Below, in pieces: positions 5,690-30,506 of a DNA stretch of 64,000 bases. Location: NCBI RefSeq assembly GCF_006152065.1, contig NZ_VDFW01000002.1, positions 310,001 through 374,000 of the forward strand, in the 5' to 3' direction. Position numbers and translations under genes: made by a program. The DNA comes from Amycolatopsis alkalitolerans. GTDB lineage: Bacteria; Actinomycetota; Actinomycetes; Mycobacteriales; Pseudonocardiaceae. Position 1 is the stretch's first letter. Each line of letters opens with the position of its first letter. The notes beneath the pieces are model-generated. The model was not told where the DNA came from, ran no database searches, and saw only the letters and a program-made list of their open reading frames with translations.

Positions 5690-5694
5690 CCCGT

Positions 5695-8196: not shown

Positions 8197-8362
8197 GGGG
8201 CCTCCTTGCCCGTCGTTCGGCGAACAAGGCTACGAACTCGCGGCGCCCGGGGGCGGACCGTTCGCGCAGAGTTCCGGACGGATCGCGCACCGGCCCGCTT
8301 CGGGTCTCCGGTCCGTCCGGGCTAACGTGGCTTACGACCAGTCGAGAAGGGTGAGGTTCGTC

Positions 8363-9186: not shown

Positions 9187-9995
9187 ATGGACAAGGTTGT
9201 CCCGCTCGGCGAGATGGCAGCCGCCGTCGAGCCGCACTCCCTGGTCTCCTTCGGGGGCGGGGGAATGCTGCGCAAGCCGATGGCGGCCGTCGCGGCGCTC
9301 GCGCTGCGGCGGACACCGGTGCGGCTGGCGGTTTTCCTCGGTGGTCCCGATGTAGACCTGATGCTGGGCGCGGGCGCGGTCGAGCAGCTGCAGTTCGCCT
9401 ACGTCGGTTTCGACGCGCTTGGCCTGTCGCCGAACTTTCGCCGGGCACGGGAGTCCGAGGGGCTGCCGGTCGTCGAGTGGACCGAAGCCATGTTCATCGC
9501 CGGGGTCGAGGCCGCGACCCGGCGGGTTCCGTTCATGCCGACGGTGAGCGGTCCCGGGGTGGACGTGATGGACGTGCCGGGAACCCCGTTCCGGCGGTTC
9601 GCCTGCCCGCTCACCGGCGAAGAGCTGACGGCCGTTCCGGCGATCAGGCCGGACGTGCTTTTCCTGCACGCAGGCGAAGCCGACCGCGAAGGCAACGTCC
9701 GCATCACCGGTGACGGTTTCCTCGATCCTCAGCTCGCGCGAGCGGCATCCACGGTCTTCGTGACCGCCGACCGGGTCGTCGACCAGCTCGGCGAAACCAT
9801 CACCGAGCACGAGACGACCATTTCCGCCTGTGGGTCACCGGTGTCGCCGAGGTTCCGCGCGGGTGCGGGTTCACCGCGTCCTTTCCGGACTGGCCGCTCG
9901 ACTACGCCGCCGCTACCGACTACGCAAGCCACTGCCGTGACCGCGACTGGCTGCGCGAGCACGCGGGAATCCTCGCCCAGGGAGCGGCGCGATGA
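9187..9995 (+). pseudogene. CoA-transferase family I alpha subunit (IpdA-like), frameshifted near the 3' end
   Basis: Starts MDKVVPLGEMAAAVEPHSLVSFGGGG, the N-terminal pattern of glutaconate-CoA-transferase/IpdA alpha subunits. Homology runs to about base 9828 (EHETTISA). It then continues in another frame as LWVTGVAEVPRGCGF and ends at the TGA at 9993-9995, which overlaps the beta-subunit ATG at 9992. The change needs one extra base near 9823-9830, so this is either a real one-base deletion or a sequencing error. In the uncorrected frame the protein runs on to about 10338 with an unrelated tail that would overlap the beta gene. EWTE near residue 97-100 is in the region where IpdA has its key Glu. 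With the beta subunit this would be a ring-opening hydrolase or CoA transferase. Confidence 0.8.
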
Positions 9996-10837
9996 CCGGG
10001 TTCACCGTCGAGGAGCAGGTGATCAGCGTGCTGGCGCAGATCTACCGCGGCGAGGTCATCGCCGCCGCGGCGACGGTCTCCGCCGATATCGCCGCCCGGC
10101 TCGCGAAAGCCTTGTATGCGCCCGAAATCGTGCTGATGGCTGGCGGCAGCATGGCCGGATTCGACTGCGCGCCCACCGCGAAAGGGCTCAACGACGAGTG
10201 GATTTCGTCCGCCACCGCGGTCCGCGGGTCGGACTGGATCGAGACGTTCGATCTCATCTCGGCGGGCAAGTACGCGATCTGCATGGGACCGGTGCAGGTC
10301 GATCGCACGGGTTCCTGCAATATCTCCGTGCTCGGTGACTGGGAGCGGCCGAAGGTCGCGATGATCGGTTCGCGCGGTATCCCCGACGACCTGGTCCGGC
10401 TGTCCGAGCTGACCTTCCACGTGCGCAGGCACACACCGCGTGCGCTGGTCGAACGGGTCGATTTCCGCTGCGGTCTCGGTTTCGGGCCCGATCGCGACCG
10501 GCTCGGTCTCACCATGGGCGAACCGCGGATGCTGGTGACGGACCTCGGCGTGTTCGACTTCGACCGCGACGGCGCCGGGATGCGGGTGCGGTCGCTGCAC
10601 CCCGGAGTGAGCTTCGGGGACGTCGTGAAGGCCACCGGCTTCGAACTGCTACCGCCGCGAGGCGCCGTCCCCGTCACGCCGCCGCCGACCGAGGAGGAGC
10701 TGTACTGGATCCGTGAACGCCTCGACCCGCTGGGCGTTCGCCGGCTCGACAGCCCCGAACCGCCGCCCGGGCTGCTCGCCGAACTGGCGGAGCGGGAGCG
10801 GTCGCTGTGGACCACGCCTGCCGGAGGCGCGCGATGA
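9992..10837 (+). CDS. CoA-transferase family I beta subunit (IpdB-like)
   Basis: 281 residues. Matches the beta subunit of the glutaconate CoA-transferase/IpdAB family (TVEEQVISVLAQIYRGEV, then IGSRGIPDDLVRL). The place of the transferase SENG-type catalytic Glu reads VLMAGGSMAGFD, with no Glu. IpdB of the steroid pathway also lacks it and works with IpdA as a hydrolase that opens a cyclic beta-diketone CoA ester. Loss of the Glu therefore argues for hydrolytic ring opening rather than CoA transfer (inference). Start overlaps the corrected stop of the alpha gene; stop overlaps the acyl-CoA dehydrogenase ATG. Confidence 0.87.
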   Translation: MTGFTVEEQVISVLAQIYRGEVIAAAATVSADIAARLAKALYAPEIVLMAGGSMAGFDCAPTAKGLNDEWISSATAVRGSDWIETFDLISAGKYAICMGPVQVDRTGSCNISVLGDWERPKVAMIGSRGIPDDLVRLSELTFHVRRHTPRALVERVDFRCGLGFGPDRDRLGLTMGEPRMLVTDLGVFDFDRDGAGMRVRSLHPGVSFGDVVKATGFELLPPRGAVPVTPPPTEEELYWIRERLDPLGVRRLDSPEPPPGLLAELAERERSLWTTPAGGAR

Positions 10838-12144
10838 GCTGGGACTTCAGCACCGATCCCGAGACGGAAGCCGAGCTTGCCTGGATCCGGGACTTCATCG
10901 ACACCAAAGCCATCCCGCTGGAGGCCCTCGAGCTGCCGGTCCGAGAGTTCGACCGGGCGGCCGCGCCGCTGATCGACGAGGTGAAGGCGCGCGGTCTGTG
11001 GGCCGCCCACCTCGGCCCCGAGCATGGCGGGACGGGCCGCGGACAGCTGCGGCTCGCCCTGATGAACGAGATCGTCGGGCGGTCCCGCGTCGGGCCGACG
11101 CTGTTCGGCACCGCGCCGCCGGACTCCGGCAATCTCGAACTGCTCGCCCCCCACGCCACCCCCGCGCAGCGCACCCGGTATTTCCTGCCACTGCTGGAAG
11201 GTTCCGTGCGCTCGTCGGTCGCGATGACCGAACCCGGCGCCGGTGCCGACCCGACTTTGCTCAGCACCCGGCTGGAGCGCCACGGGAACGGCTGGGTCCT
11301 CAATGGACACAAGTGGTTCGCCACGAATGCGTCACTCGCCGATTTCCTGCTCGTGCTGGCGGTGTCCGATCCGGACGCGCATCCGAAGCACCGGGCAACC
11401 GTGGTGATCGTGGACCGGGACGCCCTCGGGGTCGACGTCCGCCGTGACATCCCGTCGATGGAGGACCCCGAGCCCCGCCCGGCGCAGATCGAGAACCATT
11501 GCGAGATCACGTTCACCGACGTCGCGCTCCCCGCCGACGCCGTGCTCGGTGAACCGGGCCGGGGGTTCGCGATGATGCAGGAGCGGCTCGGCCCTGCCCG
11601 CGTGCACCACTGCATGCGCTGGATCGGGCAGGCCCAGCGGGCGCTCGACATGCTCTGCGAGCGCGCCACCTATCGCTACTCGCACGGGTCCACGCTCGCG
11701 GACAAGCAGACCGTGCAGAACTGGATAGCCGATTCGGCCGCCGAGATCGCCGCCGCGCGCCTGCTCACCCTGCACGCGGCGTGGCGGATCGACACGGTCG
11801 GGTCGAAGGCGGCGCGCGAGGACATCGCCCTGATCAAGTTCTACGGCGCGAAGGTCCTGCACGACGTCATCGACCGGGCCGTGCAGGCCCACGGGTCGCT
11901 CGGCTTCTCGGCCGACCTGCCGCTGGAAGCGATGTACCGCCGGGCCAGGGCGGCCCGGATCTACGACGGGCCCGACGAGGTGCATCGCCAGAGCGCCGCG
12001 CGACTGATCCTGCGCGGGTTCACACCGCCCGCGGACGGGATCCCCGCCGAACACCTGCCCACCCGCCGGCAGGCCGCCCGCGAACAGTTCGCCCACCTCC
12101 TGTCAGATCGAAAGGTTGCCGATGACGTCATCCGTTCGCTATGA
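10834..12144 (+). CDS. Acyl-CoA dehydrogenase (large ACAD11-type)
   Basis: 436 residues from the ATG overlapping the beta-subunit stop. N-terminal helices, then the FAD/substrate strand motif VAMTEPGAGADPT (about residue 130) and LNGHKWFATNAS, and the C-terminal DGPDEVHRQSAAR characteristic of the family. FAD-dependent alpha,beta-desaturation of an acyl-CoA. Embedded between the ring-opening-like CoA-transferase pair and the crotonase, so likely acts on a ring-opened or alicyclic acyl-CoA. Overlaps the next gene by 23 nt. Confidence 0.92.
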   Translation: MSWDFSTDPETEAELAWIRDFIDTKAIPLEALELPVREFDRAAAPLIDEVKARGLWAAHLGPEHGGTGRGQLRLALMNEIVGRSRVGPTLFGTAPPDSGNLELLAPHATPAQRTRYFLPLLEGSVRSSVAMTEPGAGADPTLLSTRLERHGNGWVLNGHKWFATNASLADFLLVLAVSDPDAHPKHRATVVIVDRDALGVDVRRDIPSMEDPEPRPAQIENHCEITFTDVALPADAVLGEPGRGFAMMQERLGPARVHHCMRWIGQAQRALDMLCERATYRYSHGSTLADKQTVQNWIADSAAEIAAARLLTLHAAWRIDTVGSKAAREDIALIKFYGAKVLHDVIDRAVQAHGSLGFSADLPLEAMYRRARAARIYDGPDEVHRQSAARLILRGFTPPADGIPAEHLPTRRQAAREQFAHLLSDRKVADDVIRSL

Positions 12145-13030
12145 GATCCCCGAACCCGGGATCTGTGTGATCACGTTGGCCCGGCCGGACAAACGCAACG
12201 CGCAGGACGTCCGGATGACCTACGAGCTCAACGAAGCCTTCGACCGCGCCGCACGCGACGACACGGTCAAGGTGATCGTGCTGGCCGGTGACGGCCCGCA
12301 CTTCTCGGCCGGGCACGACCTGAAAGACGTTGTCTGGCACGAGGAATTCGATCAGGTCGGCACGTGGGGCGGGTTCGGCGAGCCGGGCGCCGAGGGCTGG
12401 GTCGCCCGCGAAGAGGAGATCTACCTCGAGATGTGCGCCCGGTGGCGCGCCATCCCGAAGCCGACGATCGCCGCGGTGCACGGCAGGACCATCGGCGGCG
12501 GGCTGATGCTTGCCTGGGTGTGCGACCTGATCGTCGCGGCGGACGACGCGACGTTCGCCGACCCGGTGGTCTCGATGGGCATCTGCGGTGTCGAATGGTT
12601 CGTGCACCCGTGGGAACTCGGGCCGCGCAAAGCCAAGGAACTCCTGTACACGGCCGATTCCTGGACCGCCGACGAGGCCTATCGCCTCGGTATGGTCAAC
12701 CACGTCGTGCCGCGCGACGGGCTGACCGGGTTCACCCTCGCGCTCGCCCGCAAGATCGCGGCGAAGCCGATGTTCGGCCTGCGGCTGACCAAACAAGCCG
12801 TCAACCAGGCTGTTGACGCGCAGGGCCAGCCGACCGCGATCCGGTCCGCGTTCACGCTGCACCAGCTGGCGCACACGCACAACCTCGAGCGTTACGGGAT
12901 CTGCCTCGACCCGTCGGGCATCCCGCCCGCGCTGCAGGAGTCGTTCCCCTCCACCGAACCAGATGACGAGCTGCGGGTGAAACGACGCGCTGCCCGCGCC
13001 GCGACCTCCGACGGAAAGGCGAAATCATGA
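12122..13030 (+). CDS. Crotonase-superfamily protein lacking both hydratase glutamates
   Basis: 302 residues from ATG 12122. Oxyanion-hole segments are present: DGPHFSAGHDLKD and GRTIGGGLMLAWVCDLIVAA. The position of Glu144 of rat enoyl-CoA hydratase (GGG-x-E-LA) reads Met (GGGLMLA), and that of Glu164 (PE) reads FADPVVSMG. So the fold and CoA site are kept but the acid/base pair for water addition is missing. It may be a hydrolase, isomerase or ring-opening crotonase, or a non-hydratase partner. ATGA overlap with HyuA. Confidence 0.85.
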   Translation: MTSSVRYEIPEPGICVITLARPDKRNAQDVRMTYELNEAFDRAARDDTVKVIVLAGDGPHFSAGHDLKDVVWHEEFDQVGTWGGFGEPGAEGWVAREEEIYLEMCARWRAIPKPTIAAVHGRTIGGGLMLAWVCDLIVAADDATFADPVVSMGICGVEWFVHPWELGPRKAKELLYTADSWTADEAYRLGMVNHVVPRDGLTGFTLALARKIAAKPMFGLRLTKQAVNQAVDAQGQPTAIRSAFTLHQLAHTHNLERYGICLDPSGIPPALQESFPSTEPDDELRVKRRAARAATSDGKAKS

Positions 13031-15144
13031 GCTACGTGATCGGCGTCGACGTCGGCGGAACGTTCACCGACGCGGTCGCCTCCCGCGACGACGGCACGAT
13101 GATCTCGACGAAGACCCCCTCGACACCCCCGAACTACGCGGACGGCGTGCTGCAGGTGCTCGAGGGACTGGCCGACCGCGCCGGGGTCAGCCTGCCGGAG
13201 CTGCTGGCGGACACCTCCTACATCGCGCACGGTACGACCTCGACGCTCAACGCGCTCGTGATCGGGGACGTCGGCAAGGTCGGCTGGCTGACCACCGTCG
13301 GCCACCGTGACTCGATCTACATCATGAACGTCGTCGGCCGCTACGCCGGCAACAGCCCGGAGCAGATCCAGGACATCCTCGCCACCCGCAAACCGGCGCC
13401 GCTGGTGCCCAAACGCCGGGCGAAGGAGGTCGTCGAGCGGATCGACTACAAGGGCAGCGTCGTGGTACCGCTCGACGAAGACCAGGCGCGGCAAGCAATC
13501 CGGGAGCTGCTTGACGAGGATGTCGACGCGATCGCCGTGTCGCTGCTGTGGTCGTTCCGCAACTCCGCCCACGAGCGGCGGCTGCGGGAGCTCATCCACG
13601 AGCAGGCGCCCGAGATGTACGTGACGCTGTCCAGCGAGCTCTCGCCGCGGATGCGCGAGTTCTCCCGCAACGCGACCACGATCATGAGCACCCAGGTGGG
13701 CCCGACGCTCGCCCGCTACCTGGAGCCGCTGACGGATCGGTTGCGGGACAACGGGTTGCGCGGTCCGCTGCTGATCATGCAGGGGACCGGCGGCACGCTC
13801 GCCGCGCACGAGGCGCCGAAGACGGCGATCACGACGGTGGGCTCCGTGCTCACCGGCGGGGTGACCGGGGCGACCCGGCTGGCGGGGCAACTCGGGCATC
13901 GCAACGTCATCTGCACCGACGTCGGCGGGACGACCTTCCTCGTCGGGCTCATCGTCGATGGCGAACCGCTGCAGACCACCACCGCGGTGATCAACCAGCA
14001 CGAGATCGACGTCCCGATGCTCAAGGTGCAGGCGATCGGCAGCGGCGGCGGTGCCATCGCGTGGGTGGACGCCGGCGGCAACCTGCGGATCGGCCCGCGC
14101 AGCGCGCAGGCCGTGCCGGGGCCGGCCTGCTACGACAAGGGCGGCACCGAGCCCACCGTCACCGACGCCGATCTGGTGCTGGGCATCCTCAACCCGGACA
14201 ACTTCCTGGGCGGCCGCACCAAACTCAACGTGGCACGCGCCCGCGAGGCCATCGACAGGCACGTCGCCACCCGGCTGGGACTGAGCATCGAGGACGCCGC
14301 CGCCGCGATCTTCGCCGTGCAGAACGCCCAGACCTCGGACCTGGTGCGCAAGGTCGTGGTCGAATCGGGTGAGGACCCGCGCCACTTCGTCGCCTACGCC
14401 TTCGGCGGCGCCGGGCCGGTGCACTGCTTCGCCTACGGTGCCGACCTGGGCGTGAAGTCCACCGTCGTGCCACTCGGCCCGTCGGCGGCGGCGTTCTCCG
14501 CCTACGGGCTGGCCGCCAGCAACGTGGCCGTCGTCAAGGAGGTCTCCAAGCCCGCCACTTTCCCGGTGCCCGCCGACGAGGTCACGAAGACCTTCGAGGA
14601 ACTCGAAGCCGAGGCCCGCACGGCACTGGAGCAGCAGGGCGTCGAACTGGTCGACATCGTGCTGCGGCGCGAGGTCGACGTGCGCTACACCATGCAGCTG
14701 GCCGAACTGCCGACCCCGGTGCCGTCCGGGACGGTGACGGACGCCGACCTGAAGGGCGTCCTCGGGGAGTTCGAGGCGCGCTATCACCGCACCTTCGGGG
14801 AGGGCACCGGCTACGGCGACGCCGGCTTCCAGTTCATCACCTACCGCGTGCACGCGACCGGCGTGCTCCCGTCCCAGGTTGTCCTGCCCGAGGCCGGTCC
14901 CGCGGCCGGACAGTCCATTGAGGACGCCCTGACCGGACGGCGGCCGGTCCTGCTCGATCCGGCCCGCGGGTTCGAGGACACCCCCATCTACGACTACCTC
15001 CGCCTCGCGCCGGGGCACCGGATCACCGGTCCGGCGATCGTCGAGGTCCCGACCACGACCGTCACGATCTCGCGCCGCGACACCGCCGAGATCGACCGGT
15101 TCGGCAACCTCGTTCTGCACCACACCACCAAGGAGGACGCGTGA
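13027..15144 (+). CDS. HyuA-type ATP-dependent hydantoinase/carboxylase subunit (copy 1)
   Basis: 705 residues, standard length for HyuA/acetone-carboxylase beta. The N-terminal ATPase motif GVDVGGTFTDAV and the second one CTDVGGTTFLVGL mark the ASKHA-type nucleotide fold, and VPGPACYDKGGTEPTVTDADL is the family signature. Works with HyuB. The family couples ATP hydrolysis to lactam opening (N-methylhydantoinase, 5-oxoprolinase, IaaCE) or to ketone carboxylation (acetone and acetophenone carboxylases). A diverged second copy is at 24410-26527. Stop overlaps a 25-codon ORF. Confidence 0.92.
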   Translation: MSYVIGVDVGGTFTDAVASRDDGTMISTKTPSTPPNYADGVLQVLEGLADRAGVSLPELLADTSYIAHGTTSTLNALVIGDVGKVGWLTTVGHRDSIYIMNVVGRYAGNSPEQIQDILATRKPAPLVPKRRAKEVVERIDYKGSVVVPLDEDQARQAIRELLDEDVDAIAVSLLWSFRNSAHERRLRELIHEQAPEMYVTLSSELSPRMREFSRNATTIMSTQVGPTLARYLEPLTDRLRDNGLRGPLLIMQGTGGTLAAHEAPKTAITTVGSVLTGGVTGATRLAGQLGHRNVICTDVGGTTFLVGLIVDGEPLQTTTAVINQHEIDVPMLKVQAIGSGGGAIAWVDAGGNLRIGPRSAQAVPGPACYDKGGTEPTVTDADLVLGILNPDNFLGGRTKLNVARAREAIDRHVATRLGLSIEDAAAAIFAVQNAQTSDLVRKVVVESGEDPRHFVAYAFGGAGPVHCFAYGADLGVKSTVVPLGPSAAAFSAYGLAASNVAVVKEVSKPATFPVPADEVTKTFEELEAEARTALEQQGVELVDIVLRREVDVRYTMQLAELPTPVPSGTVTDADLKGVLGEFEARYHRTFGEGTGYGDAGFQFITYRVHATGVLPSQVVLPEAGPAAGQSIEDALTGRRPVLLDPARGFEDTPIYDYLRLAPGHRITGPAIVEVPTTTVTISRRDTAEIDRFGNLVLHHTTKEDA

Positions 15145-15218
15145 GCGACAATCGCGCAGCCCCGCTCATGCGGTCCGACCGGGTGCGGGTGTCCCGCAAA
15201 ACACAGGAGGACGCGTGA
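15141..15218 (+). CDS. 25-residue ORF bridging hyuA and hyuB (copy 1)
   Basis: GTG 15141 overlaps the HyuA stop and its TGA (15216-15218) overlaps the HyuB GTG at 15215. Both junctions carry the identical 16 bp direct repeat AGGAGGACGCGTGAGC (15131-15146 and 15205-15220), each with an SD and start codon. The peptide (MSDNRAAPLMRSDRVRVSRK, then TQEDA) has no match I know. The second hyuA/hyuB pair has a direct ATGA overlap and no such spacer, so this looks like a 74 bp insertion or duplication that kept coupling. Confidence 0.4.
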   Translation: MSDNRAAPLMRSDRVRVSRKTQEDA

Positions 15219-17518
15219 GCAGCCCGATTCCCGGAGCCGAGGTCTACCACAGCCGCCCCGTGGACCCGGAACAACTCCGCGTGAGCGTGCCGGCCAGCCT
15301 GCGGCTGCACACCGTCGGCCAGGACGCCATCGACAATCTGGACCCGCTCACCTATGAAGTGATCCGGCACCGGCTCTGGTCGATCACCGACGAGATGGGC
15401 GAGACGCTCAAGCGCATGTCCGGCTCGGTGGTGGTCACCGAGGCCAACGACTTCGACTTCGCCCTGTGTGACGAGGTCGGCCAGGAGGTGCAGATCGGGC
15501 TCTACAACACCTTCCTGTCCGCGTCGCTGGACCTGGCCGTCTACTGGACGCTGCAACATCGCGCGGACAACCCGGGCATCAACGAGGGCGACATGTTCCT
15601 CTGCAACGATCCCTGGGTCGGCGGTGGGCTGCACCAGAACGACGCCACCGTGTTCGCGCCGTTCTTCTTCGACGGCGAGCTTTTCGGCTGGTCCTCGGCC
15701 GTGGCGCACCAGCTCGACGTCGGCGGTGTCGCGCCCGGTTCCTGGACCCCGCGCGCCCAGGACGTGTTCTGGGAGTCGCTGCCCACCCCGCCCATCAAAG
15801 TGGTGCGGGACAACGTGTTGCAGCGCGACGTGGCGGACATGTGGACGCGCCGCTCCCGCACGCCGATGCTGGTCTCGCTCGACCTGCGGGCGAAGGTCGG
15901 GGCGAACCACACCGCGCAGGCCCGGCTGCGTCGGTTGCTCGAAACCTACGGGCCCGACACGGTCAAGGCCGTCATGAAGCGGATCATGGACGACGCGGAG
16001 CAGCGGCTGCGCGCGAAGCTGCGGGAACTTCCCGACGGCACCTGGCACGCCACCGGCTACCAGGAACACTCCGGCCAGGGCGACCGCGGCCTGTACAAGA
16101 TCGTGCTGGCGATGACCAAATCCGGCGATCGGCTGACGTTCGATTTCCGCGGTACCGCGGCACAAACCGGCATGATCAACTGTCCCTATTCCGGTGTGCG
16201 GGCCGGCATCATGTCCGCGCTGCTGCCGGTGCTGGCCGGCGACATCCCCTGGGCCGGCGGCGGCCTGATGCGCTGCTTCGACATCATCGCCGAAGAGGGC
16301 ACGATGATCAACGCGTCGTTCCCCGCCGCGGTCGGCAAGGGCCCCGTCGGCCCCGCGTGGGCGGCGGGCAACCTCGTCAACGAGTGCCTCGCCAAGATGC
16401 TCGATGCCCGCCCGCATGCCCGCAAGTCCGTGCAGTCGGTGTGCGGCGGCACCTTCGACATGGTCGCCCTCGCGGGCCTCGACCAGCGGCAGTACCCGTT
16501 CGTCTCGCTGGTGATGGACGCGATGGCGGGTGGCTACGGCGCCGGGGTCGACCGGGACGGCGTCGACACCGGCGGGGCGTTCGTCATTCCCATGGGCCGT
16601 GCGCCCGATGCCGAGATGACCGAGTTCACTTCGCCGGTGCTGCTGTTGTGGCGTCGCGAGGAGACGGACTCCGGGGGCCCCGGCGCCCAGCGGGGCGGTG
16701 TCAGCGGGTCCGTTTGCCTTGTCCCGCATGACACACCGGCCCCGCTGGCCGGGGTGTTCTCCGGCACGGGTAAGGCGACAACGCAGAACGCCGGCCTGGC
16801 CGGTGGGTATCCGGGCAACACCCAGCTCGACATCGTGCTGCGCGGCAGTGATGTGCTCGGTACGCTCGCCGCCGGCCGGGTTCCCCGCAGCCTCGACGAG
16901 ATCACGGCCACCCGCGATGTCATGGGCGGTGAGGTCGAAACCTTCATCGGCCTCGAAGACGCGGTGTACGTGCATTGGCAGAGTGGTGGCGGCTACGGCG
17001 ACCCGCTGCACCGCGACCCGGCCGCCGTGGCCGAGGACGTGCGCGAGGCGAAGGTCTCCGAGCGGGCGGCGCACGAGATCTACGGCGTCGTCCTGAACCC
17101 CGACGGCGCCGCGGATGTGGACGCGACTCGGCGCCAGCGGGAACAGCTGTCGGCCGCGCGCCGCAGCGCGGCGGGCATCACGGAGGCCCGTGGGCGCCGT
17201 GCGGACGTGACGGGCGCGGAGACCTTGGACGTGAACCAGGCGCTGGTCGACGGGCAGACCGTCGTCTGCCGTCACTGCGGCACCGGACTGGGCACGCTGG
17301 GGGAACCGTATCTTGCCGCGCTGCCCCGGATCGAGGCCGAACCGGCCGCCGCGGGGCCGCACGTCTGGCCGGACTCGGCGACCTACATCGACGAGCGGGT
17401 CGTCTTCCGGCAGGCGTTCTGCCCCGGCTGCGCGACCGCGCTGCTGAGCCAGGTCGTGCCCGCCGATCACCCGATGCCCGCCGACAGTTTCGGGGCCGGG
17501 AGCGGAAATGACCGCTGA
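15215..17518 (+). CDS. HyuB-type subunit with fused C-terminal zinc domain (copy 1)
   Basis: 767 residues. The HyuB body starts LDPLTYEVIRHRLWSITDEM and includes GDMFLCNDPWVGGGLHQND and GYPGNTQLDI. The last ~110 residues have two cysteine pairs, CRHCG and FCPGCA, separated by about 65 residues, with YIDERVVFRQAFCPGC between. This resembles the small zinc-binding gamma subunit of acetone carboxylase, here fused to HyuB. That favours a ketone carboxylase over a simple lactamase, but the link rests on motif resemblance only. Overlaps the ligase start by 11 nt. Confidence 0.9.
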   Translation: MSSPIPGAEVYHSRPVDPEQLRVSVPASLRLHTVGQDAIDNLDPLTYEVIRHRLWSITDEMGETLKRMSGSVVVTEANDFDFALCDEVGQEVQIGLYNTFLSASLDLAVYWTLQHRADNPGINEGDMFLCNDPWVGGGLHQNDATVFAPFFFDGELFGWSSAVAHQLDVGGVAPGSWTPRAQDVFWESLPTPPIKVVRDNVLQRDVADMWTRRSRTPMLVSLDLRAKVGANHTAQARLRRLLETYGPDTVKAVMKRIMDDAEQRLRAKLRELPDGTWHATGYQEHSGQGDRGLYKIVLAMTKSGDRLTFDFRGTAAQTGMINCPYSGVRAGIMSALLPVLAGDIPWAGGGLMRCFDIIAEEGTMINASFPAAVGKGPVGPAWAAGNLVNECLAKMLDARPHARKSVQSVCGGTFDMVALAGLDQRQYPFVSLVMDAMAGGYGAGVDRDGVDTGGAFVIPMGRAPDAEMTEFTSPVLLLWRREETDSGGPGAQRGGVSGSVCLVPHDTPAPLAGVFSGTGKATTQNAGLAGGYPGNTQLDIVLRGSDVLGTLAAGRVPRSLDEITATRDVMGGEVETFIGLEDAVYVHWQSGGGYGDPLHRDPAAVAEDVREAKVSERAAHEIYGVVLNPDGAADVDATRRQREQLSAARRSAAGITEARGRRADVTGAETLDVNQALVDGQTVVCRHCGTGLGTLGEPYLAALPRIEAEPAAAGPHVWPDSATYIDERVVFRQAFCPGCATALLSQVVPADHPMPADSFGAGSGNDR

Positions 17519-20149: not shown

Positions 20150-20167
20150 GCCGAGGAGGCCCGTCAC

Positions 20168-23165: not shown

Positions 23166-24292
23166 AGGTCTTGGTAGTCGGTGGGGGGCCGGGTGGGCTC
23201 TTTTTCGGGATCCTGCTCAAGCGCGCGAGGCCGGATATCGCGGTGCACGTCGTGGAGCAGAATCCCGCGGACGCGACCTACGGATGGGGAATCGGGCTGA
23301 CGGACTCCGCGCTCGACGCCCTGCGACCCTCAGCCCCCGAGGTCGTTTCCGATCTGTCCGATGGCGCCGATGTCACCGACGAGATGGAATTCACGCTCGA
23401 CGGCAAGTCGTTGCGAGTGCACGCGTCCACCTTTTATCGCGTCGCGCGCATCGTCCTGCTGGAAAAGCTCCAGCAGTGGGGACGAGCGGCGGGCGTGACA
23501 TTCGCGCACAACGAACGAGTCGAAACGAGTGACGAGCTGGCGGGCTGGGACCTCGTCGTCGGCGCGGACGGTGTCAACAGCCGGGTTCGCGAGATGTTTT
23601 CCGAGGTGTTCAAGCCGGATATCAGCTATGGGAACAACTGGTTCGCGTGGTACGGGACAGCCCAGCTGTTCGGGACCCCGTCGCTGATTTTCCTGAATCG
23701 TCCTGAGGGGGTCTTCGTCGGCCACGCCTCCCAGTACTCGCCCGACCGGAGCAATTTTCTGGTGGAGTTGTCCCCGGAGGCGTACTACGGCGCGCGCTTC
23801 GACACTCTCGGCGAAGAGGCATCGCGGCTACGTTGTGAAGAGATCTTCGCCGAGTCCCTGCACGGCGGTCGTCTCTACACCAACAAGTCGCTCTGGTTTC
23901 AACCGAAGTTCGTCCGGTGCGCGGGATCGTGGAGCCACGACAACGTGACGTTGCTCGGGGACGCGCTGCACACCGTCCATCCTTCCCTGGGGTCGGGAAC
24001 ACGTTTCGCCATGCGTGATGCCGTATACCTGGTGGACGCTCTCGTCTCCGCCAGCTGGGACGTACCGGCGGCGTTCCGCTCGTACGAGGAGAGCCGCCGT
24101 GACGTCGCGGAAGCCTTCCAGCGGGCCGCCGTCCGCAGCATCGGCTGGTACGAACGGCTCCAGGACCGGCCGCCCCGCGATCTCGCCAAGATGACGCTGG
24201 AGTACGTCATGCGGACCGGCCGGGTGCGCTACGAGGAGTTCCGGCGCAGGAATCCCGAGATGATGAGCGCATACGAGACGCCGCAGCCCTGA
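23162..24292 (+). CDS. FAD-dependent aryl-CoA monooxygenase (ACMR/salicylyl-CoA hydroxylase N-half)
   Basis: 376 residues. N-terminal FAD fold VLVVGGGPGGLFFGILLKRA, then VGADGVNSRVR (DG motif) and LLGDALHTVHPSLGSGTRFAM (GD motif). The N-terminal pattern, including the GWGIGLTDSAL stretch and HPSLGSGT loop, is that of the monooxygenase half of 2-aminobenzoyl-CoA monooxygenase/reductase and salicylyl-CoA 5-hydroxylase. It stops where those fusions continue into an OYE domain, which is encoded separately at 21484-22593. Last gene of the 9.2-24.3 kb operon. Confidence 0.9.
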   Translation: MKVLVVGGGPGGLFFGILLKRARPDIAVHVVEQNPADATYGWGIGLTDSALDALRPSAPEVVSDLSDGADVTDEMEFTLDGKSLRVHASTFYRVARIVLLEKLQQWGRAAGVTFAHNERVETSDELAGWDLVVGADGVNSRVREMFSEVFKPDISYGNNWFAWYGTAQLFGTPSLIFLNRPEGVFVGHASQYSPDRSNFLVELSPEAYYGARFDTLGEEASRLRCEEIFAESLHGGRLYTNKSLWFQPKFVRCAGSWSHDNVTLLGDALHTVHPSLGSGTRFAMRDAVYLVDALVSASWDVPAAFRSYEESRRDVAEAFQRAAVRSIGWYERLQDRPPRDLAKMTLEYVMRTGRVRYEEFRRRNPEMMSAYETPQP

Positions 24293-24312
24293 CACCCGGC
24301 CAGGCACACCGC

Positions 24313-24340
24313 TTGACATGTTGTCGGTGACGTTTAAGAA
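24313..24340 (+). promoter_or_regulatory. Candidate promoter of the second HyuA/HyuB/ligase operon
   Basis: TTGACA (24313-24318) and TAAGAA (24335-24340) spaced by 16 nt, 70 nt upstream of the HyuA2 start. The only intergenic gap over 100 nt in this part of the block, so HyuA2 probably begins a separate transcript. No TCAAC-type palindrome is seen here. Confidence 0.55.
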
Positions 24341-24409
24341 TCGACGAGTCCGTCAAGTCGGGAGTGGTGACTCCCCTTCGCCCGAGCGCGCACGAAGGAG
24401 TGCACTGCC

Positions 24410-26527
24410 ATGGCCTATGTGATCGGAGTCGACGTCGGTGGCACGTTCACCGACGCCGTGCTCGACGACAACGAGGGCACGCTCATCGCGGCCAAGTCGC
24501 CGTCTTCACCCCCGGACTACTCCGTCGGCGTCGTCGACGCCCTCGATGCCCTGGCCGGGCAGCTGGACCTCAGCCTGGAGGACATGCTCGCCGACACCCA
24601 CCACATCGCGCACGGGACGACTTCGTCGCTGAACGCGCTGGTGACCGGCAACGTGCCGGCGGTCGGGTTCCTCACCACGGCGGGCCACCGGGACTCGCTC
24701 TACATCATGAACGTCGAGGGGCGCTATCTGGGTCGTTCTCCGGACCAGCTGCAGAACGTGATGGGGCAGACGAAGACACACGCCCTCCTGCCCAAGAAAC
24801 GCGCGCTCGAAGTGATCGAGCGCATCGACCGGGACGGCAACGTCGTCGTTCCCCTGAACGAGGACGCCGCACGCGACGCGATCCGCGCGCTCGTGGCCGA
24901 CGGCGTCGCCGCGATCGCGGTCTCGTTGCTGTGGTCGTTCCGCAATCCCGTCCACGAGCGCCGGCTCCGGGAGCTGGTCCACGAGATCGATCCGGTCGTG
25001 TTCGTCAGCCTCTCCAGCGAGGTCAGCCCGCGCATCCGGGAGTTCTCGCGCAGTGCCACCACGATCATGAGCGCACAGATCGGCCCCGGCCTGCGCGACT
25101 ATCTCGGCGAGCTGGAGACCAAGCTGCGCGACCACAAGCTCGCCGGCCCCCTGCTGGTGATGCAGAGCAACGGCGGCGCCATCGCGGCCGCCGAAGCGCC
25201 GCGAGGCGCGATCAGCACGGTGGGCTCGGTGCTTACCGGTGGTGTGGTCGGCGCGCTGTCCCTAGGACGGCAACTGGGCCACCGCAACATCATCGCCACG
25301 GACGTGGGCGGCACGACGTTCCTCGCCGGACTGATCGTCGACGGCGAGCCGGTGCGCGCCACGACCACCATCATCAATCACCATCCGATCAATGTGCCCA
25401 GCCTGGAGGTCCACGCCATCGGATCCGGTGGCGGCGCGATCGCCTGGGTGGACCCCGGTGGAAACCTCCACATCGGACCGCGCAGCGCCCAGGCGGTGCC
25501 CGGTCCGGCGTGCTACGGCCAGGGGGGCACCGAACCCACCAACACCGACGCCAATCTGGTTCTGGGCATCCTCCCCGAGAGCGGGCTTCTCGGCGGGAAG
25601 AAGAAGCTCTCCATGGAGCTCGCCCGCGAGGCGATCCGGACCCGCATCGCTGAGCCATTGGGGTTGAGCGTGGAGGACGCCGCGTCCGCCATCTACGCCG
25701 TGCAGAACGCACAGACCGGTGACCTCCTGCGCAAGACGGTCGTCGAGGCCGGGCACGATCCGCGGAACTTCATCGTGTACGCCTTCGGCGGATCCGGCCC
25801 GGCGCACTGTGCCGGCTACGCCGCCGAAGTCGGAGTGAAGCAGGTCGTGGTCCCGCTGGGCCAGGTCGCCTCTGCCTTCTCGGCCTACGGACTCGCTTCC
25901 TCCGACGTCGTGCTGGCCACCGAGCTCTCCGTGCCGAGCGCGATCCCGCTGGACCCGGAGAAGGTGCGCAAGAGTTTCGAGGAGCTCGAGGCACAGGTCC
26001 GCGAGGCGCTCGCGCGCCAGGGGCTCTCCTTCACCTCGATCGGAATCGAGCGCGAGATCGACATGCGGTTCACCGCCCAGCTGGCCGAGATCGCCGTGCC
26101 GGTAGCGGGCGACGCCATGGACCAGCCCGGTCTCGACGCCGCCGCGACCTGGTTCGAGCGCAAGTATGCCGAGCTGTACGGCGAGGGCACGGGCTTCCGC
26201 GGCGCGGGCATCCAGGCGATCACGTTCCGGGTGCGCGCCACGGGTGTCCTGCCGTTTTCACCCGAGCTGCCCGGCATCGGCGTCGCGGGCTCGAGCGACG
26301 CCTCGGCGGCCCGCACGGGGACGAGGCCGGTCTGCCTTGACGGGGCGACCGGTTACGTCGATACCGGCGTCTACGACTACCGCAAGCTCGCCCGCGGCCA
26401 CGTCATCCCCGGCCCCGCCATCATCGAGGTCCCCACAACGACCGTCGTCGTGCCGCACGGCGCCACCGGGACGATCGATCACCTCGGCAACCTCACCATC
26501 GCCGCCAGCCAGGAGCAGCCACGATGA
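24410..26527 (+). CDS. HyuA-type ATP-dependent hydantoinase/carboxylase subunit (copy 2)
   Basis: 705 residues, same length and domain order as copy 1 (13027-15144): GVDVGGTFTDAV, ATDVGGTTFLAGL, VPGPACYGQGGTEPTNTDANL. The two copies are similar throughout but differ at many positions, so this is an old duplication or independent acquisition rather than a recent tandem copy. SD-like GAAGGAG precedes the ATG. ATGA overlap with HyuB2. Confidence 0.92.
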   Translation: MAYVIGVDVGGTFTDAVLDDNEGTLIAAKSPSSPPDYSVGVVDALDALAGQLDLSLEDMLADTHHIAHGTTSSLNALVTGNVPAVGFLTTAGHRDSLYIMNVEGRYLGRSPDQLQNVMGQTKTHALLPKKRALEVIERIDRDGNVVVPLNEDAARDAIRALVADGVAAIAVSLLWSFRNPVHERRLRELVHEIDPVVFVSLSSEVSPRIREFSRSATTIMSAQIGPGLRDYLGELETKLRDHKLAGPLLVMQSNGGAIAAAEAPRGAISTVGSVLTGGVVGALSLGRQLGHRNIIATDVGGTTFLAGLIVDGEPVRATTTIINHHPINVPSLEVHAIGSGGGAIAWVDPGGNLHIGPRSAQAVPGPACYGQGGTEPTNTDANLVLGILPESGLLGGKKKLSMELAREAIRTRIAEPLGLSVEDAASAIYAVQNAQTGDLLRKTVVEAGHDPRNFIVYAFGGSGPAHCAGYAAEVGVKQVVVPLGQVASAFSAYGLASSDVVLATELSVPSAIPLDPEKVRKSFEELEAQVREALARQGLSFTSIGIEREIDMRFTAQLAEIAVPVAGDAMDQPGLDAAATWFERKYAELYGEGTGFRGAGIQAITFRVRATGVLPFSPELPGIGVAGSSDASAARTGTRPVCLDGATGYVDTGVYDYRKLARGHVIPGPAIIEVPTTTVVVPHGATGTIDHLGNLTIAASQEQPR

Positions 26528-28836
26528 CCATGCACATTCCCGGTTCGGCCGCGTTCGCCAGCCGTCCCATCGACCCGCTCCGGTTCGCCGGCCAGTTGCC
26601 GGACTCCCCGCCGCGGCACACCGTGACCGATGAGCAGATCGAGGCACTGGACCCGCTCACCTACGAGGTGATCCGGCACCGCCTGTGGTCGGTCACCGAC
26701 GAGATGGGCGAAACCCTCAAACGCATGTCCGGCTCGCCGGTCGTCACGGACGCCAACGACTTCGACTTCGCGATCAGCGACGAGCTCGGCCAGGAAGTCC
26801 AGGTCGGCCTCTACAACACGATGCTGGCCGGTGCGGTCGATCTGGCGATCTACTGGACCCTGCGGAACCGCACCGTTCGCGAGGGCGACATGTTCCTGTG
26901 CAACGACCCGTGGGTCGGCGGGGGTCTGCACCAGAACGACGTCATCGTCTTCCAGCCCATCTTCGTCGACGGGCGGCTCTTCGCGTGGACCAGCGCGGTA
27001 TGCCATGAGCCCGACCTGGGCGGTGTCGGACTCGGCTCCTTCGACCCCGCGGCACAGGACGTCTTCTCCGAGGCGGTTCCCACCCCGCCGGTGCGTGTCG
27101 TCCGCGATTTCGAGCTCCAGGAGGACATCGCCGACCTGTGGATCCGCCGCTCCCGGGTGCCGCTGCTGGTCGGGCTCGACCTGCGCGCCAAGGTCGGCGC
27201 GAACACAGTGGGCCGCAACCGGCTCGAGGCGGTCGTCGAACAGTACGGCGCCGACACCGTCAAGGCCGTCATGAAGCGCATGATGAACGACGCCGAACAG
27301 CGGCTGCGCGACAAGCTCCGCCGCGTTCCCGACGGCACCTGGCACGCCACCGGCTATCAGGACCAGGCGCGCGAAGGCGACCGCGGAGTCCACAAGATCA
27401 CCGTCGCGATGACGAAAAAAGGGGACCACCTCACCTTCGACTTCACCGGTACCGATCCGCAAGCCGGCGTCATCAACTGCACCTACGCCGGTATGCGCGG
27501 GGGCGCCATGCTCGCGCTCCTGCCCGTGCTCGCGCATGACATCCCGTGGTCCGCCGGTGGCCTGCTGCGCTGCTTCGACATCGTCTCGGAGGAAGGGACG
27601 CTCAACAACGCCACCTTCCCCGCCGCGGTCAGCCGGGGCCCGATCGGCCCGGCGTGGCTGACCGGATCGCTGATCGCGGAATGCCTCTCGCAGATGCTCG
27701 ACCGGACCGTCGAGTTCGGCGACAGCGTTCAGGCCAGCTGCTGCGGCACGCACGACACCGCGGTCCTGGCCGGCGTCGACGCCCGCGGCGGCGAACCGGC
27801 CCCCTTCATCAACATCGTGATGGACGTGATGGCCGCCGGTTACGGCGCGCGCCCGCGGCAGGACGGGATGGACACCGGCGGCCTCAACTGCATCCCGATG
27901 GGCCGGATCCCCGACGTGGAAATGGTCGAGTACCTCTACCCGCTGATGACGCTGTGGCGCCGCGAGGAACCCGACTCGGGCGGTCCGGGCCGGCATCGCG
28001 GTGGCGTCAGCGGCTCCAGCGCCATGATCCCTTACGGCACGGGCACGCCCATGGGGCTGGTCGTGGCCTCCTCCGGCAAGGGGGTCGCCCAGAACAACGG
28101 CCTGGCCGGTGGTTACCCCGGCAACACCGCCATCGGGATCGTGGCCCGCGGCTCCAGCGTCAAGGCCGCCTTCCGGTCCGGCATCCTCCCGACCACGTTG
28201 GAGATCGTCGCCGGCACCCAGGAGTTGCGCGCCTGCTACGACACCTCCTATCTGGCCCCGGACGACGTCCTCTACCTGAACTGGCAGGGCGGCGGCGGGT
28301 ATGGCGACCCGGTGCTGCGCGAACCGTCCGCCGTCCTGGCCGACTACCACGCGGGCAAGGTCACGGCGGACGGGTCGGCGGAGACCTACGGCGTCGTACT
28401 GTCCGGTGACACCGTCGACGAGGCGGCGACCGGGCGCCGGCGTGCCGAGATCCGCCGGCACCGCGCCACCCAGGCCACCATTCCGGCCGGGGAGCCGCGG
28501 ACCGTGGATCTCGCTACCGCGGTCCGGCTGGACGACAACCTGGCCGAGGTCAGGGCAGGCGGCGGCCTCGTGGTGGCCTGCCGCCATTGCGGCCGTCAGC
28601 TGGGCGATGCGCGCACGGACGCCACCCTGGCGCTGGCCAGGCTCGACGGGCCCGCCCGCGCTGCCGGTCCGCAGGTCACCGCCGACCCGGCCACCTACCT
28701 CGATGACGAGGTGGTGTTCCGCCAGCTCTTCTGCCCGGGTTGCTGGACGGCCGTCTACTCCGGCCTGGTGCCCGCCGACCACCCCGACCACGCCCTCGAC
28801 ATCGGCCGGCTGATGCCGAGCAGCGCATCCCGATGA
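26524..28836 (+). CDS. HyuB-type subunit with fused C-terminal zinc domain (copy 2)
   Basis: 770 residues. Same architecture as 15215-17518: LDPLTYEVIRHRLWSVTDEM, GDMFLCNDPWVGGGLHQND, and the C-terminal CRHCG and FCPGCW cysteine pairs with DEVVFRQLFCPGC. The paired Cys motifs are conserved between copies, so the zinc domain is under selection. Start ATG overlaps the HyuA2 stop; ATG 26530 is an alternative. Stop overlaps the ligase ATG. Confidence 0.9.
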   Translation: MTMHIPGSAAFASRPIDPLRFAGQLPDSPPRHTVTDEQIEALDPLTYEVIRHRLWSVTDEMGETLKRMSGSPVVTDANDFDFAISDELGQEVQVGLYNTMLAGAVDLAIYWTLRNRTVREGDMFLCNDPWVGGGLHQNDVIVFQPIFVDGRLFAWTSAVCHEPDLGGVGLGSFDPAAQDVFSEAVPTPPVRVVRDFELQEDIADLWIRRSRVPLLVGLDLRAKVGANTVGRNRLEAVVEQYGADTVKAVMKRMMNDAEQRLRDKLRRVPDGTWHATGYQDQAREGDRGVHKITVAMTKKGDHLTFDFTGTDPQAGVINCTYAGMRGGAMLALLPVLAHDIPWSAGGLLRCFDIVSEEGTLNNATFPAAVSRGPIGPAWLTGSLIAECLSQMLDRTVEFGDSVQASCCGTHDTAVLAGVDARGGEPAPFINIVMDVMAAGYGARPRQDGMDTGGLNCIPMGRIPDVEMVEYLYPLMTLWRREEPDSGGPGRHRGGVSGSSAMIPYGTGTPMGLVVASSGKGVAQNNGLAGGYPGNTAIGIVARGSSVKAAFRSGILPTTLEIVAGTQELRACYDTSYLAPDDVLYLNWQGGGGYGDPVLREPSAVLADYHAGKVTADGSAETYGVVLSGDTVDEAATGRRRAEIRRHRATQATIPAGEPRTVDLATAVRLDDNLAEVRAGGGLVVACRHCGRQLGDARTDATLALARLDGPARAAGPQVTADPATYLDDEVVFRQLFCPGCWTAVYSGLVPADHPDHALDIGRLMPSSASR

Positions 28837-30506
28837 GCCACTCGGACTGGGACGGGCGCCTGGTGAGCGTTCCGGCCGAGCGGGCGGCGCGCTACCGTGC
28901 GACCGGCGAGTGGAGCGACGCTCCCACCAGCCGGCGGCTCCACGAGGTCGCAACCCGGTTTCCCCGGCGGCCGGCGGTCATCACCGCCGAGGGCGAGCTC
29001 AGCTACGCGGACCTCGACGCGCGCACCGACCAGATCGCCGCCGGGCTGATCGACCTCGGGTTCCGGCGGCTGGACCCGGTGCTGTTCCAGGTGACCAACC
29101 GCATGGCGACGGTCCTGGCGTGGTACGGATGCCTCAAGGCCGGGCTGGTGCCGGTCGCCACCTTGGCGGCGCACCGGATGCACGAGATCGGCCACGTCAG
29201 CCGGGCGGTGGGGGCGGTCGGCCACCTGGTCGAACGAGGCCTCGGCTTCGACCTCGCCGGATTCGCCCGCGAGGTCGCCGCGGGCCACCCCACACTGCGC
29301 CATGTCCTGACCATCGGCGGAGATCCGGAGCCAGGCGCGCCGGCCCGGATCGAGGACGTCGGCGCGTCCATCGACTCCGGCCGCGCCCGTGCCGTGGTCG
29401 AGGCCGTGGAACAGGCCACGGATCCGCTGGACGTCGCGGTCTTCCAGCTCTCCGGCGGCACCACCGGGGTGCCCAAGGTGATTCCCCGCATCCACGCCGA
29501 GTACTGGAACAACGCCCTGTTCTACGCCCGTCACCTCGGCTGGGACGAGCACAGCCGGGTCGCGCACCTGATCCCGCTGGTCCACAACGCGGGCATCTCG
29601 TGCGCCCTGCACGCGGCCCACTCCGTCGGGGCGTGCCTGCTGCTCGCCACACCCGATGCCCGCCGGGCCTTCGCGCTCATGGCCGAGCACGGCGCCACGG
29701 AGGCCCTGTTCGGCCACGGCCACTACCAGGCGCTGCTGCGGCCGGAGTTCGACCGGGCACGGCGCGCCTTGCGCCGCTCGGTGCTCTCCGGCGCCAAGGT
29801 CAGCCCCGAGCTCTTCGCGCGCGTCGACGACGGGCAGAGCCGGTGGGCCGGCCAGATGTTCGGCATGTCGGAGGGGTTGTTCACGGTCAGCCCCCTGGAC
29901 TCGCCCGCGGAAGCGCGGCAGACCACCGTCGGCGTACCGATCGCGCCGAGCGACGAAGTGCGGATCCTCGATCTGTCCTCAGAGGACGAATTGCCGGCCG
30001 GTGAGGTCGGCGAACTCTGCTGCCGCGGCCCCTACACGATCGCGGGCTACTTCGACGCACCCGCACACAACGCGACCGCGTTCACCTCGGACGGCTTCTA
30101 CCGGACCGGGGACCTGGCCGCGATCCGCCTTGCCGGAGGGCGCCGTCACGTCGTCATCGAGGGGCGCATCAAGGACCTGATCAATCGCGGCGGCGAGAAG
30201 ATCAACGCCGAGGAGGTCGAGATGCTGCTGGCGCGCCACGACCGCATCACCGCGGCGGCGGTCGTCGCCATGCCCGACGCACGGCTCGGTGAGAAGACCT
30301 GTGCGTATCTCGTCTCCACCGACGAGACCCGGCTCAGCCTCACCGAGATCCAGCATCACCTCGAAGGCCTGGGAGTCGCGAAGTTCAAATGGCCGGAGCG
30401 GCTGGAGTGGGTGCCCGCCTTGCCCCGGACCACTGTCGGCAAGGTCGACAAGAAACACCTGCGTGCCGAGGTCGCCGCCAAGGTCACCGAGCGGGCCGCC
30501 GGCTGA
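28833..30506 (+). CDS. Aryl-CoA/aryl-acid ligase (DhbE/SdgA-type AMP-binding, copy 2)
   Basis: 557 residues. LSGGTTGVPKVIPRIH, the HN pair in LIPLVHNAG, GMSEGLFTV and the catalytic lysine motif VGKVDKKHL. Same subfamily as 17508-19136 but clearly diverged in the aryl pocket region (HNAGISCALH versus HNAGVALCVL), so the two may activate different ortho-substituted aryl acids. Last intact gene of cassette 2; a chimeric fragment follows. Confidence 0.9.
   Translation: MSHSDWDGRLVSVPAERAARYRATGEWSDAPTSRRLHEVATRFPRRPAVITAEGELSYADLDARTDQIAAGLIDLGFRRLDPVLFQVTNRMATVLAWYGCLKAGLVPVATLAAHRMHEIGHVSRAVGAVGHLVERGLGFDLAGFAREVAAGHPTLRHVLTIGGDPEPGAPARIEDVGASIDSGRARAVVEAVEQATDPLDVAVFQLSGGTTGVPKVIPRIHAEYWNNALFYARHLGWDEHSRVAHLIPLVHNAGISCALHAAHSVGACLLLATPDARRAFALMAEHGATEALFGHGHYQALLRPEFDRARRALRRSVLSGAKVSPELFARVDDGQSRWAGQMFGMSEGLFTVSPLDSPAEARQTTVGVPIAPSDEVRILDLSSEDELPAGEVGELCCRGPYTIAGYFDAPAHNATAFTSDGFYRTGDLAAIRLAGGRRHVVIEGRIKDLINRGGEKINAEEVEMLLARHDRITAAAVVAMPDARLGEKTCAYLVSTDETRLSLTEIQHHLEGLGVAKFKWPERLEWVPALPRTTVGKVDKKHLRAEVAAKVTERAAG

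Follow-up and report, generated by a model that had tools for sequence, protein, structure and literature searches.

A conserved operon of Amycolatopsis alkalitolerans that may open ortho-substituted aromatic CoA esters hydrolytically

Gene content and conservation of the operon

This work deals with a group of twelve genes in a 64,000-nt stretch of DNA (the window; contig positions 310,001-374,000) that is part of the 6.78-Mb genome of the actinobacterium Amycolatopsis alkalitolerans. All twelve lie on the forward strand between window positions 9187 and 24292 and encode, in this order, an IpdA-like and an IpdB-like protein, an acyl-CoA dehydrogenase (ACAD), an enoyl-CoA hydratase (crotonase), HyuA, HyuB, an aryl-CoA ligase, a kinase, a thiolase, an OYE-family ene-reductase, a WrbA-type protein and an FAD monooxygenase (FMO), an arrangement referred to below as the type B operon. 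Assignment by Pfam and NCBIfam agrees with the families, the order and the single strand given by an initial annotation made from the letters alone, which missed the kinase at 19133-20149, the ACAD11-type character of the dehydrogenase and a break in the ipdA frame. The genes follow each other closely: 7 of the 11 junctions are 4-base overlaps, two are overlaps of 11 and 23 bases and two are gaps of 18 and 70 bases, figures that depend on the start codons we selected. The junction between ipdA and ipdB was scored as a 4-base overlap, since relatives put the end of ipdA at 9992-9995; the raw first-frame open reading frame (ORF) would give an overlap of 347. Family assignment of all twelve genes revealed no ring-cleaving dioxygenase among them.

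The initial annotation had joined to these genes, as one operon, the HyuA/HyuB/ligase cassette that follows at 24410-30506. The twelve genes stand as such a unit, but the cassette, which begins 117 bases after the gene of the operon's monooxygenase (FMO1) and does not show up in the roughly 10 kb that follow FMO1 in two relatives, belongs, to judge by its sequence, to a separate and commoner cluster, called type A here, with the operon ending at 24292.

The gene order from IpdA to FMO1 is identical in all three type B genomes, i.e., that of the window, Amycolatopsis acidicola and Pseudonocardia kujensis, the latter two being both of the other genomes with an FMO1 of more than 70% identity (83% and 74%, respectively). 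Scanning genome contigs with a two-sequence FMO1 alignment, a search by two short patterns in which members can be missed, gave eight loci, two of them type B and six of a third arrangement, type C. The closest FMO1 outside this set, among the matches listed in 200 genomes of the family, is the type C copy of genome G564 (52%), and the remaining listed matches show 32-40% identity. A TetR gene lies upstream of the operon in all three type B genomes; directly downstream of FMO1 there is a short-chain dehydrogenase (SDR) in A. acidicola, and a zinc alcohol dehydrogenase (ADH) lies downstream in P. kujensis. No plasmid-borne type B operon was seen, IpdB matches reaching at most 37% among those listed and the best FMO1 match 48%; the three records examined, out of 158 plasmid records with an FMO1 match, were all type A/C-like, and two further plasmid stretches (IpdB and HyuB matches) held a steroid-type cluster in one case and a record without gene annotation in the other. 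Left out of the counts were ORFs of fewer than 100 codons or with a low GC content at third codon positions and, in context scans, weaker matches overlapping better ones. The type B operon is real, conserved and coherent; what is new in it is how known enzyme families are combined, and no new kind of enzyme is involved.

The ipdA frame of the window is broken once, near 9825. Relatives align with 9187-9825 in frame 1 and continue from 9825 in frame 3, and for this reason the end of the ORF at 10338 is not the real end of the gene; ipdA is intact in A. acidicola (269 aa) and P. kujensis (265 aa).

Sequence signatures of the predicted enzymes

Both subunits of the IpdAB-like pair have their best PDB matches (Table 1) ahead of glutaconate CoA-transferase, which follows at E 1.3e-12 for IpdA and 2.7e-18 for IpdB. 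The PDB table labels entries 6co6, 6coj and 6con as (probable) CoA-transferases; we take all three to be IpdAB. According to the available text of PMC5380842, the beta-subunit glutamate that is essential in CoA-transferases is replaced by Gly57 in IpdB. Gly51 of the operon's IpdB aligns with this position, and the surrounding AGGSM is kept in all three species. Glu100 of the operon's IpdA, likewise kept in the three, aligns with a glutamate of 6co6 that is alanine in the variant 6coj and is presumably the catalytic residue. Identity of IpdB is 95% in A. acidicola and 86% in P. kujensis. From these signatures, the pair is predicted to open a cyclic keto CoA ester by hydrolysis. The source genome holds a second IpdAB pair (locus L205), 41% (IpdA) and 33% (IpdB) identical to that of the operon; next to it are a ligase, ACADs, a thiolase and a crotonase that shares 56% identity with that of the operon, and this cluster looks like one for steroid rings C/D.

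The second set of signatures concerns the kinase and the dehydrogenase. The kinase matches two bacterial structures in PDB, 9o56 and 3dxp, and then ACAD11 (E 3e-37), and it carries HGDFRLDN at residue 203, with a candidate catalytic aspartate, which may correspond to D220 of ACAD11. The best PDB matches of the dehydrogenase are 4hr3 (E 1e-70) and ACAD11 (5e-66), the next protein being at 4e-41. For the ACAD10/11 and LvaC type, the available text of PMC12440821 gives ACAD11 residues R626, H634, R637 and the catalytic Asp753, with which the four residues of the operon enzyme in Table 1 align in that order, all kept in the three type B species (the ACAD11 chain in our alignment is numbered one lower than in that paper). 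Since a kinase and an ACAD11-type dehydrogenase are both present, a 4-hydroxyacyl-CoA intermediate is suggested, and the two signatures together are the strongest independent hint that the product of ring opening would be a 4-oxo acyl-CoA, in which the 4-oxo group would block beta-oxidation in the same way as it does in levulinate. The available text of PMC3534580 describes, in anthranilate-grown Arthrobacter, a C7H8O4 acid bound to CoA, which may be cyclohexanedione-carboxyl-CoA; this is a precedent for the cyclic intermediate expected before this step. Another kinase-ACAD pair lies side by side in the source genome (L204).

FMO1 is homologous to the hydroxylase half of salicylyl-CoA 5-hydroxylase and 2-aminobenzoyl-CoA monooxygenase. 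OYE aligns to residues 391-756 of the bifunctional salicylyl-CoA 5-hydroxylase model PRK08255, whose first part is matched by FMO1 (Table 1); both are far below the model's cut-off, and the score of OYE with the NADPH dehydrogenase NamA model is almost equal to its score with PRK08255. A tree of 43 FMO rows places FMO1 and the type C enzymes in a nine-row clade (support 100/100) with no fused row inside; the fused rows do not make one clade, so that FMO1 could stem from a fused ancestor. Types A, B and C join with a support of only 92/61, with a long-branch warning for type A versus types B/C. Pieces from tblastn with fewer than 220 aligned residues were left out in tree building, hence the missing OYE row for L166. 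Judged by homology, the FMO1-OYE pair would be a functional analogue of the fused enzyme. The source genome has a fused monooxygenase/reductase of its own (L070, contig C2), together with a ligase, an ACAD, a crotonase and a PaaX regulator.

The HyuB-zinc fusion named by the initial annotation is real, as a profile of 14 HyuB C-termini (of 19) has the beta subunit of acetophenone carboxylase as its best PDB match (E 4.8e-4, the next at 0.23). In single-sequence searches the zinc domain of HyuB1 matches PF08882 at E 0.0099, below the cut-off of that family, and the ApcB model at E 0.17, and HyuB2 of the downstream cassette matches neither; both Cys pairs are present in 18 of the 19 HyuB proteins examined. 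Acetone carboxylase is composed of one HyuA-like, one HyuB-like and one zinc subunit. The operon, with its HyuA-like and HyuB-like proteins and zinc domain, has the same composition, and the likeness of this domain to ApcB adds to the case for HyuAB as a carboxylase. HyuAB of the zinc-fused clade are also found beside an aromatic-ring hydroxylase (Rng_hyd_C) and an alpha/beta hydrolase in L108 and L114, a fourth HyuAB context, in which stretches no ligase homologue was seen.

The nearest solved relative of ligase 1 is a salicylate-AMP ligase (E 2.8e-116), and the score of ligase 1 with the NCBIfam equivalog, 418 bits, is below the cut-off of 724 bits. The motif [LI]PxxHN is present in both window ligases and, in at least one copy, in 14/14 scanned type A/B loci, as against 0/6 type C loci; its asparagine presumably meets the ortho hydroxyl of the substrate. 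The ligase would thus seem to favour, not strongly, an ortho-hydroxy acid over anthranilate, and candidates for the HyuAB substrate are an aryl ketone, a phenol or a cyclic amide.

Proposed pathway and rival readings

Our preferred reading, held tentatively and at somewhat less than even confidence, is that the operon serves the aerobic, CoA-dependent catabolism of an ortho-substituted (most likely ortho-hydroxy) aromatic compound, the ring of which would be opened hydrolytically, without a dioxygenase. Gene content, gene order, family membership and key residues are what was observed, and from them we infer every substrate and the order of reactions. HyuAB with the fused zinc domain would catalyse an ATP-dependent reaction, most likely a carboxylation as in acetone or acetophenone carboxylase, and the ligase would form the CoA ester; if an aryl ketone is carboxylated, thiolase would cut the beta-keto ester into salicyloyl-CoA and acetyl-CoA. 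FMO1 would hydroxylate the aryl-CoA para to the ortho substituent, WrbA would keep the hydroxylated product reduced, and OYE would dearomatise it to 2,5-dioxocyclohexane-carboxyl-CoA. The IpdAB-like pair would then hydrolyse the C1-C2 bond of this cyclic beta-keto thioester, which on chemical grounds should yield 4-oxopimeloyl-CoA. Removal of the 4-oxo group would proceed as in levulinate breakdown, i.e., by reduction (through the SDR or the ADH adjoining the operon in the two relatives), phosphorylation of the 4-hydroxy group by the kinase and elimination of the phosphate by the ACAD11/LvaC-type enzyme, after which crotonase and thiolase could finish the route to acetyl-CoA and glutaryl-CoA. 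Below the CoA ester the pathway is well supported by sequence signatures, and the chemistry proposed in the initial annotation, that a CoA-bound ortho-substituted aromatic is hydroxylated, reduced, opened by an IpdAB-like pair and beta-oxidised without a ring-cleaving dioxygenase, is borne out at this level.

Several observations weigh against this reading. The break of ipdA in this assembly is either real or an assembly fault. The core scores of HyuA and HyuB do not separate carboxylases from lactamases: HyuA1 has 498 bits with caprolactamase CapA and 411 with ApcC, N-methylhydantoinase and ApcC match it equally in PDB, and HyuB1 has its best PDB match in 6yra_B by a narrow margin. The HyuB of L118 (G237:C1:3403001-3423000), 60% identical to HyuB1 and 663 aa long, has no zinc domain. 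The five-subunit composition of ApcABCDE is not found, since the ApcE model gave no match and no second HyuA-like (ApcA) gene exists among the twelve, HyuA2 downstream having its own HyuB2; nor is there, among the twelve, a gene for a 4-oxo reductase or a 3-hydroxyacyl-CoA dehydrogenase. A tree of 47 OYE rows puts the operon's OYE among free-standing OYEs, outside the fused domains, which make their own clade (100/99); coming from a non-fused clade, this OYE could act elsewhere. Its origin as the split-off half of a fused monooxygenase/reductase, one reading of the word split in the initial annotation, was rejected on this ground. Homologues of IpdA, IpdB, the kinase and HyuAB are absent (E 1e-6) from 21/21 fused-enzyme loci (stretches of 11-20 kb; 20 selected from 49 genomes with a match, plus the source genome's own L070). 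With IpdAB in 0/21 of these stretches, ring opening of the IpdAB type is not a general solution for the fused-enzyme family, and the candidate role of IpdAB as general partner of fused enzymes was rejected.

Among the alternatives the one that survives best, although itself unlikely, is that HyuAB would be an ATP-dependent cyclic amide or imide hydrolase acting on a lactam or an isatin-like ring; the ortho-aminoaryl acid so formed would be passed on as an anthraniloyl-type CoA ester, on which the remaining steps would run. The higher score of HyuA1 with CapA, the equal standing of N-methylhydantoinase, the pair 6yra_A/6yra_B as nearest hydantoinase/caprolactamase-like relative and the zinc-free HyuB of L118, a member of the same clade, fit such an activity, as does the action of FMO homologues on 2-aminobenzoyl-CoA (available text of PMC4539516). 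However, both HyuB proteins of the window carry the ApcB-like zinc domain, for which 6yra_B (581 aa, matched over 3-578) has no room, and a ligase of this type speaks for an ortho-hydroxy acid. The interpretation given in the initial annotation is supported in part, its ring chemistry by sequence, but not a split enzyme by descent, and its two substrate types, aryl ketone and 2-oxindole type, stand as candidates beside some other substrate.

HyuAB could also carboxylate a phenol ring ortho to the hydroxyl and give salicylate, to be activated by the neighbouring salicylate-type ligase, thiolysis being unneeded; this seems rather improbable. The zinc domain, which supports a carboxylase, and the type A loci speak for it: in 12 of these HyuAB is clustered with a ligase-2 homologue, the HN motif is kept in 12/12, the salicylyl-CoA-hydroxylase-like FMO2 is found in 11/12, and a thiolase homologue (E<=1e-15) occurs in only 1/12 stretches. 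But the type B operon holds a thiolase, that of type A may lie elsewhere in the genome, and to our knowledge ring carboxylation is without precedent in the HyuAB family. As a long shot, this idea can be carried further, with HyuAB and zinc domain as an aerobic, biotin-free, ATP-dependent phenol ortho-carboxylase whose salicylate would be trapped as CoA ester, followed by gentisate-like oxygenolytic cleavage in type A, and by OYE plus IpdAB and then levulinate-type phosphorylation in type B.

Equally improbable is that the IpdAB-like pair would be an ordinary CoA-transferase, with the kinase and ACAD serving an unrelated 4-hydroxy acid and the operon being a loose set of degradation genes: all members do come from broad families, and the pair matches PF01144 (CoA_trans), but the order is the same in three genomes, start and stop codons are coupled, and the CoA-transferase glutamate is lost, the IpdA glutamate being present.

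Neighbouring clusters and known systems

The window holds two interleaved clusters, since the remainder of type A lies at about -480 to 4700 and its cassette at 24410-30506. In this genome HyuA, HyuB and ligase of type A are 20 kb from the remainder; in the 12 type A stretches all are in one cluster. These 12 (with HyuA2- and HyuB2-type proteins and a ligase-2 homologue) are among 18 HyuB-homologue stretches that were selected from 39 listed matches, partly for a nearby FMO match, so that 12/18 is no frequency; the other six have HyuAB without FMO2. Within the 12, FMO2 is found in 11 (not L117), the Asp/Glu-racemase-family protein in 11 (not L123), VOC and the 443-aa protein in 11 (not L112) and TetR in 11 (not L113); the 443-aa protein, alpha/beta hydrolase-like, has no Pfam match above cut-off. 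HyuB homologues (E<=1e-120) occur in 28/200 family genomes and 2/396 phylum genomes, the source genome counted in each.

The C-terminal tail of FMO2 (window 627-1028, 133 aa; 105-177 aa in 12/12 proteins examined) has no Pfam match above cut-off; hhalign likens it, with a probability of 73% and E 3e-5, to the last part of an OYE barrel, and in an hmmsearch with it the first 10 matches were real OYEs and the 11th a shuffle. The tail may be what is left, in degenerate form, of a reductase half that the type A enzyme has lost. A hotdog thioesterase was considered for the tail and is not supported (E 0.11 against one thioesterase).

The six type C loci (L126-L131) have TetR, VOC, the 443-aa protein, WrbA, an FMO1-like enzyme, a ligase and a weak P450 match, and no HyuAB was seen in them. 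The HN motif, absent here and present in types A and B, suggests that different acids are activated. On a plasmid of Variovorax paradoxus VAI-C (L208), genes for an FMO, a ligase, a thioesterase, a VOC protein, an Asp/Glu racemase and an alpha/beta hydrolase are grouped, and Caballeronia sp. NK8 (L207) has a similar set; neither cluster has HyuAB matches, and five of their proteins are 40-53% identical to window homologues. Such sets suggest for types A and C a route from gentisate to maleate to fumarate, as opposed to the reductive and hydrolytic one of type B. Divergent from the operon, the AraC, P450 and ferredoxin-reductase genes are shared by the window and A. acidicola and were not found in the P. 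kujensis stretch examined.

Table 1. Genes of the type B operon, followed by neighbouring features of the window (window coordinates)
Feature	Position	Strand	Basis
IpdA-like alpha subunit, predicted ring-opening hydrolase	9187..9995	+	Best PDB match 6co6_A, E 4.7e-25; Glu100 kept
IpdB-like beta subunit	9992..10837	+	Best PDB match 6con_B, E 2.4e-30; Gly51
ACAD11/LvaC-type acyl-CoA dehydrogenase	10834..12144	+	R251, H259, R262, D378
Crotonase/enoyl-CoA hydratase	12122..13030	+	PRK08290 subfamily, above cut-off
HyuA1, ATP-dependent subunit	13027..15144	+	DVGGTFTD and DVGGTTFLVG motifs
HyuB1 with C-terminal ApcB/AcxC-like zinc domain	15215..17518	+	CxxC...CPxC, about aa 676-767
Aryl-CoA ligase 1, salicylate/DHB-AMP-ligase type	17508..19136	+	LPVMHN motif
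4-Hydroxyacyl-CoA kinase-type protein (ACAD10/11 kinase domain, LvaA-like)	19133-20149	+	PF01636 (APH); between ligase and thiolase
Thiolase	20168..21487	+	PRK07851 family, above cut-off
OYE-family ene-reductase	21484..22593	+	Not of the fused monooxygenase/reductase clade
WrbA/flavodoxin-like quinone reductase	22590..23165	+	Family match
FAD monooxygenase FMO1	23162..24292	+	PRK08255 residues 1-382, E 1.9e-85; tree
HyuA2	24410..26527	+	73-77% identity in 12 type A loci
HyuB2 with zinc domain	26524..28836	+	67-73% identity in 12 type A loci
Aryl-CoA ligase 2	28833..30506	+	IPLVHN motif; type A
FMO2, 3' part	1..1028	+	Gene starts about 480 bases before the window (contig C12 from 309520)
Rest of type A cluster	1025..4700	+	Asp/Glu-racemase-family protein (Amdase), TetR, VOC, 443-aa alpha/beta hydrolase-like protein
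AraC regulator, P450, ferredoxin-reductase protein	4676..8182	-	Divergent from operon
TetR regulator	8195..9058	+	PF17932/PF00440; 90% (A. acidicola) and 71% (P. kujensis) identity upstream of ipdA

Among known systems, 2-aminobenzoyl-CoA monooxygenase/reductase (Azoarcus evansii, Arthrobacter Rue61a) and salicylyl-CoA 5-hydroxylase are alike in having an aryl-CoA ligase, a homologous FAD hydroxylase, OYE-type reduction, ACAD, crotonase and a dearomatised oxo-cyclohexene-carboxyl-CoA. The known enzyme is, however, one fused chain, whereas FMO and OYE of the operon are separate, with an OYE from another clade. The steroid ring C/D module (IpdAB with EchA20, FadA6 and FadD3) shares the IpdAB residue signature and differs in that the predicted substrate of the operon's IpdAB is a ring derived from an aromatic CoA ester. 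LvaAC of levulinate breakdown and mammalian ACAD10/11 likewise combine a kinase and an ACAD with the residues reported for 4-phosphoacyl-CoA; the operon has these as separate genes, in an aromatic-degradation setting, with a 4-hydroxy dicarboxylic acyl-CoA as predicted substrate.

On the side of HyuAB, AcxABC, and ApcABCDE with benzoylacetate-CoA ligase (for Apc, the available text of PMC4729919), are similar in their HyuA-like ATPase, HyuB-like subunit, zinc subunit and ligase/thiolase logic, but in the operon the zinc subunit is fused to HyuB, the ligase is of DhbE type and no equivalent of ApcA or ApcE is seen. The acetovanillone (Hpe) pathway of Rhodococcus rhodochrous GD02 resembles it as carboxylation of a hydroxyphenyl ketone by an actinobacterium, and differs by a biotin-dependent carboxylase and a separate phenol kinase (both points from the available text of PMC9618137). 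In the open-licence literature searched, no paper joined any two of aminobenzoyl-CoA, levulin and IpdAB.

The available text of the review PMC4539516 describes the step after dearomatisation in the 2-aminobenzoyl-CoA pathway only as 'beta-oxidation'. The operon offers a testable answer, for one lineage, to how a ring could be opened after the action of a monooxygenase/reductase, i.e., by an IpdAB-type hydrolase, followed by phosphorylation of a 4-hydroxyacyl-CoA, and three genomes with the same gene order, two of them with an intact ipdA, are at hand as material. If true, this would extend IpdAB from steroids to aromatics, would place the chemistry of ACAD10/11 and LvaAC in aromatic catabolism, and would provide a natural example of a HyuB-type subunit joined in one chain to the zinc subunit of a carboxylase.

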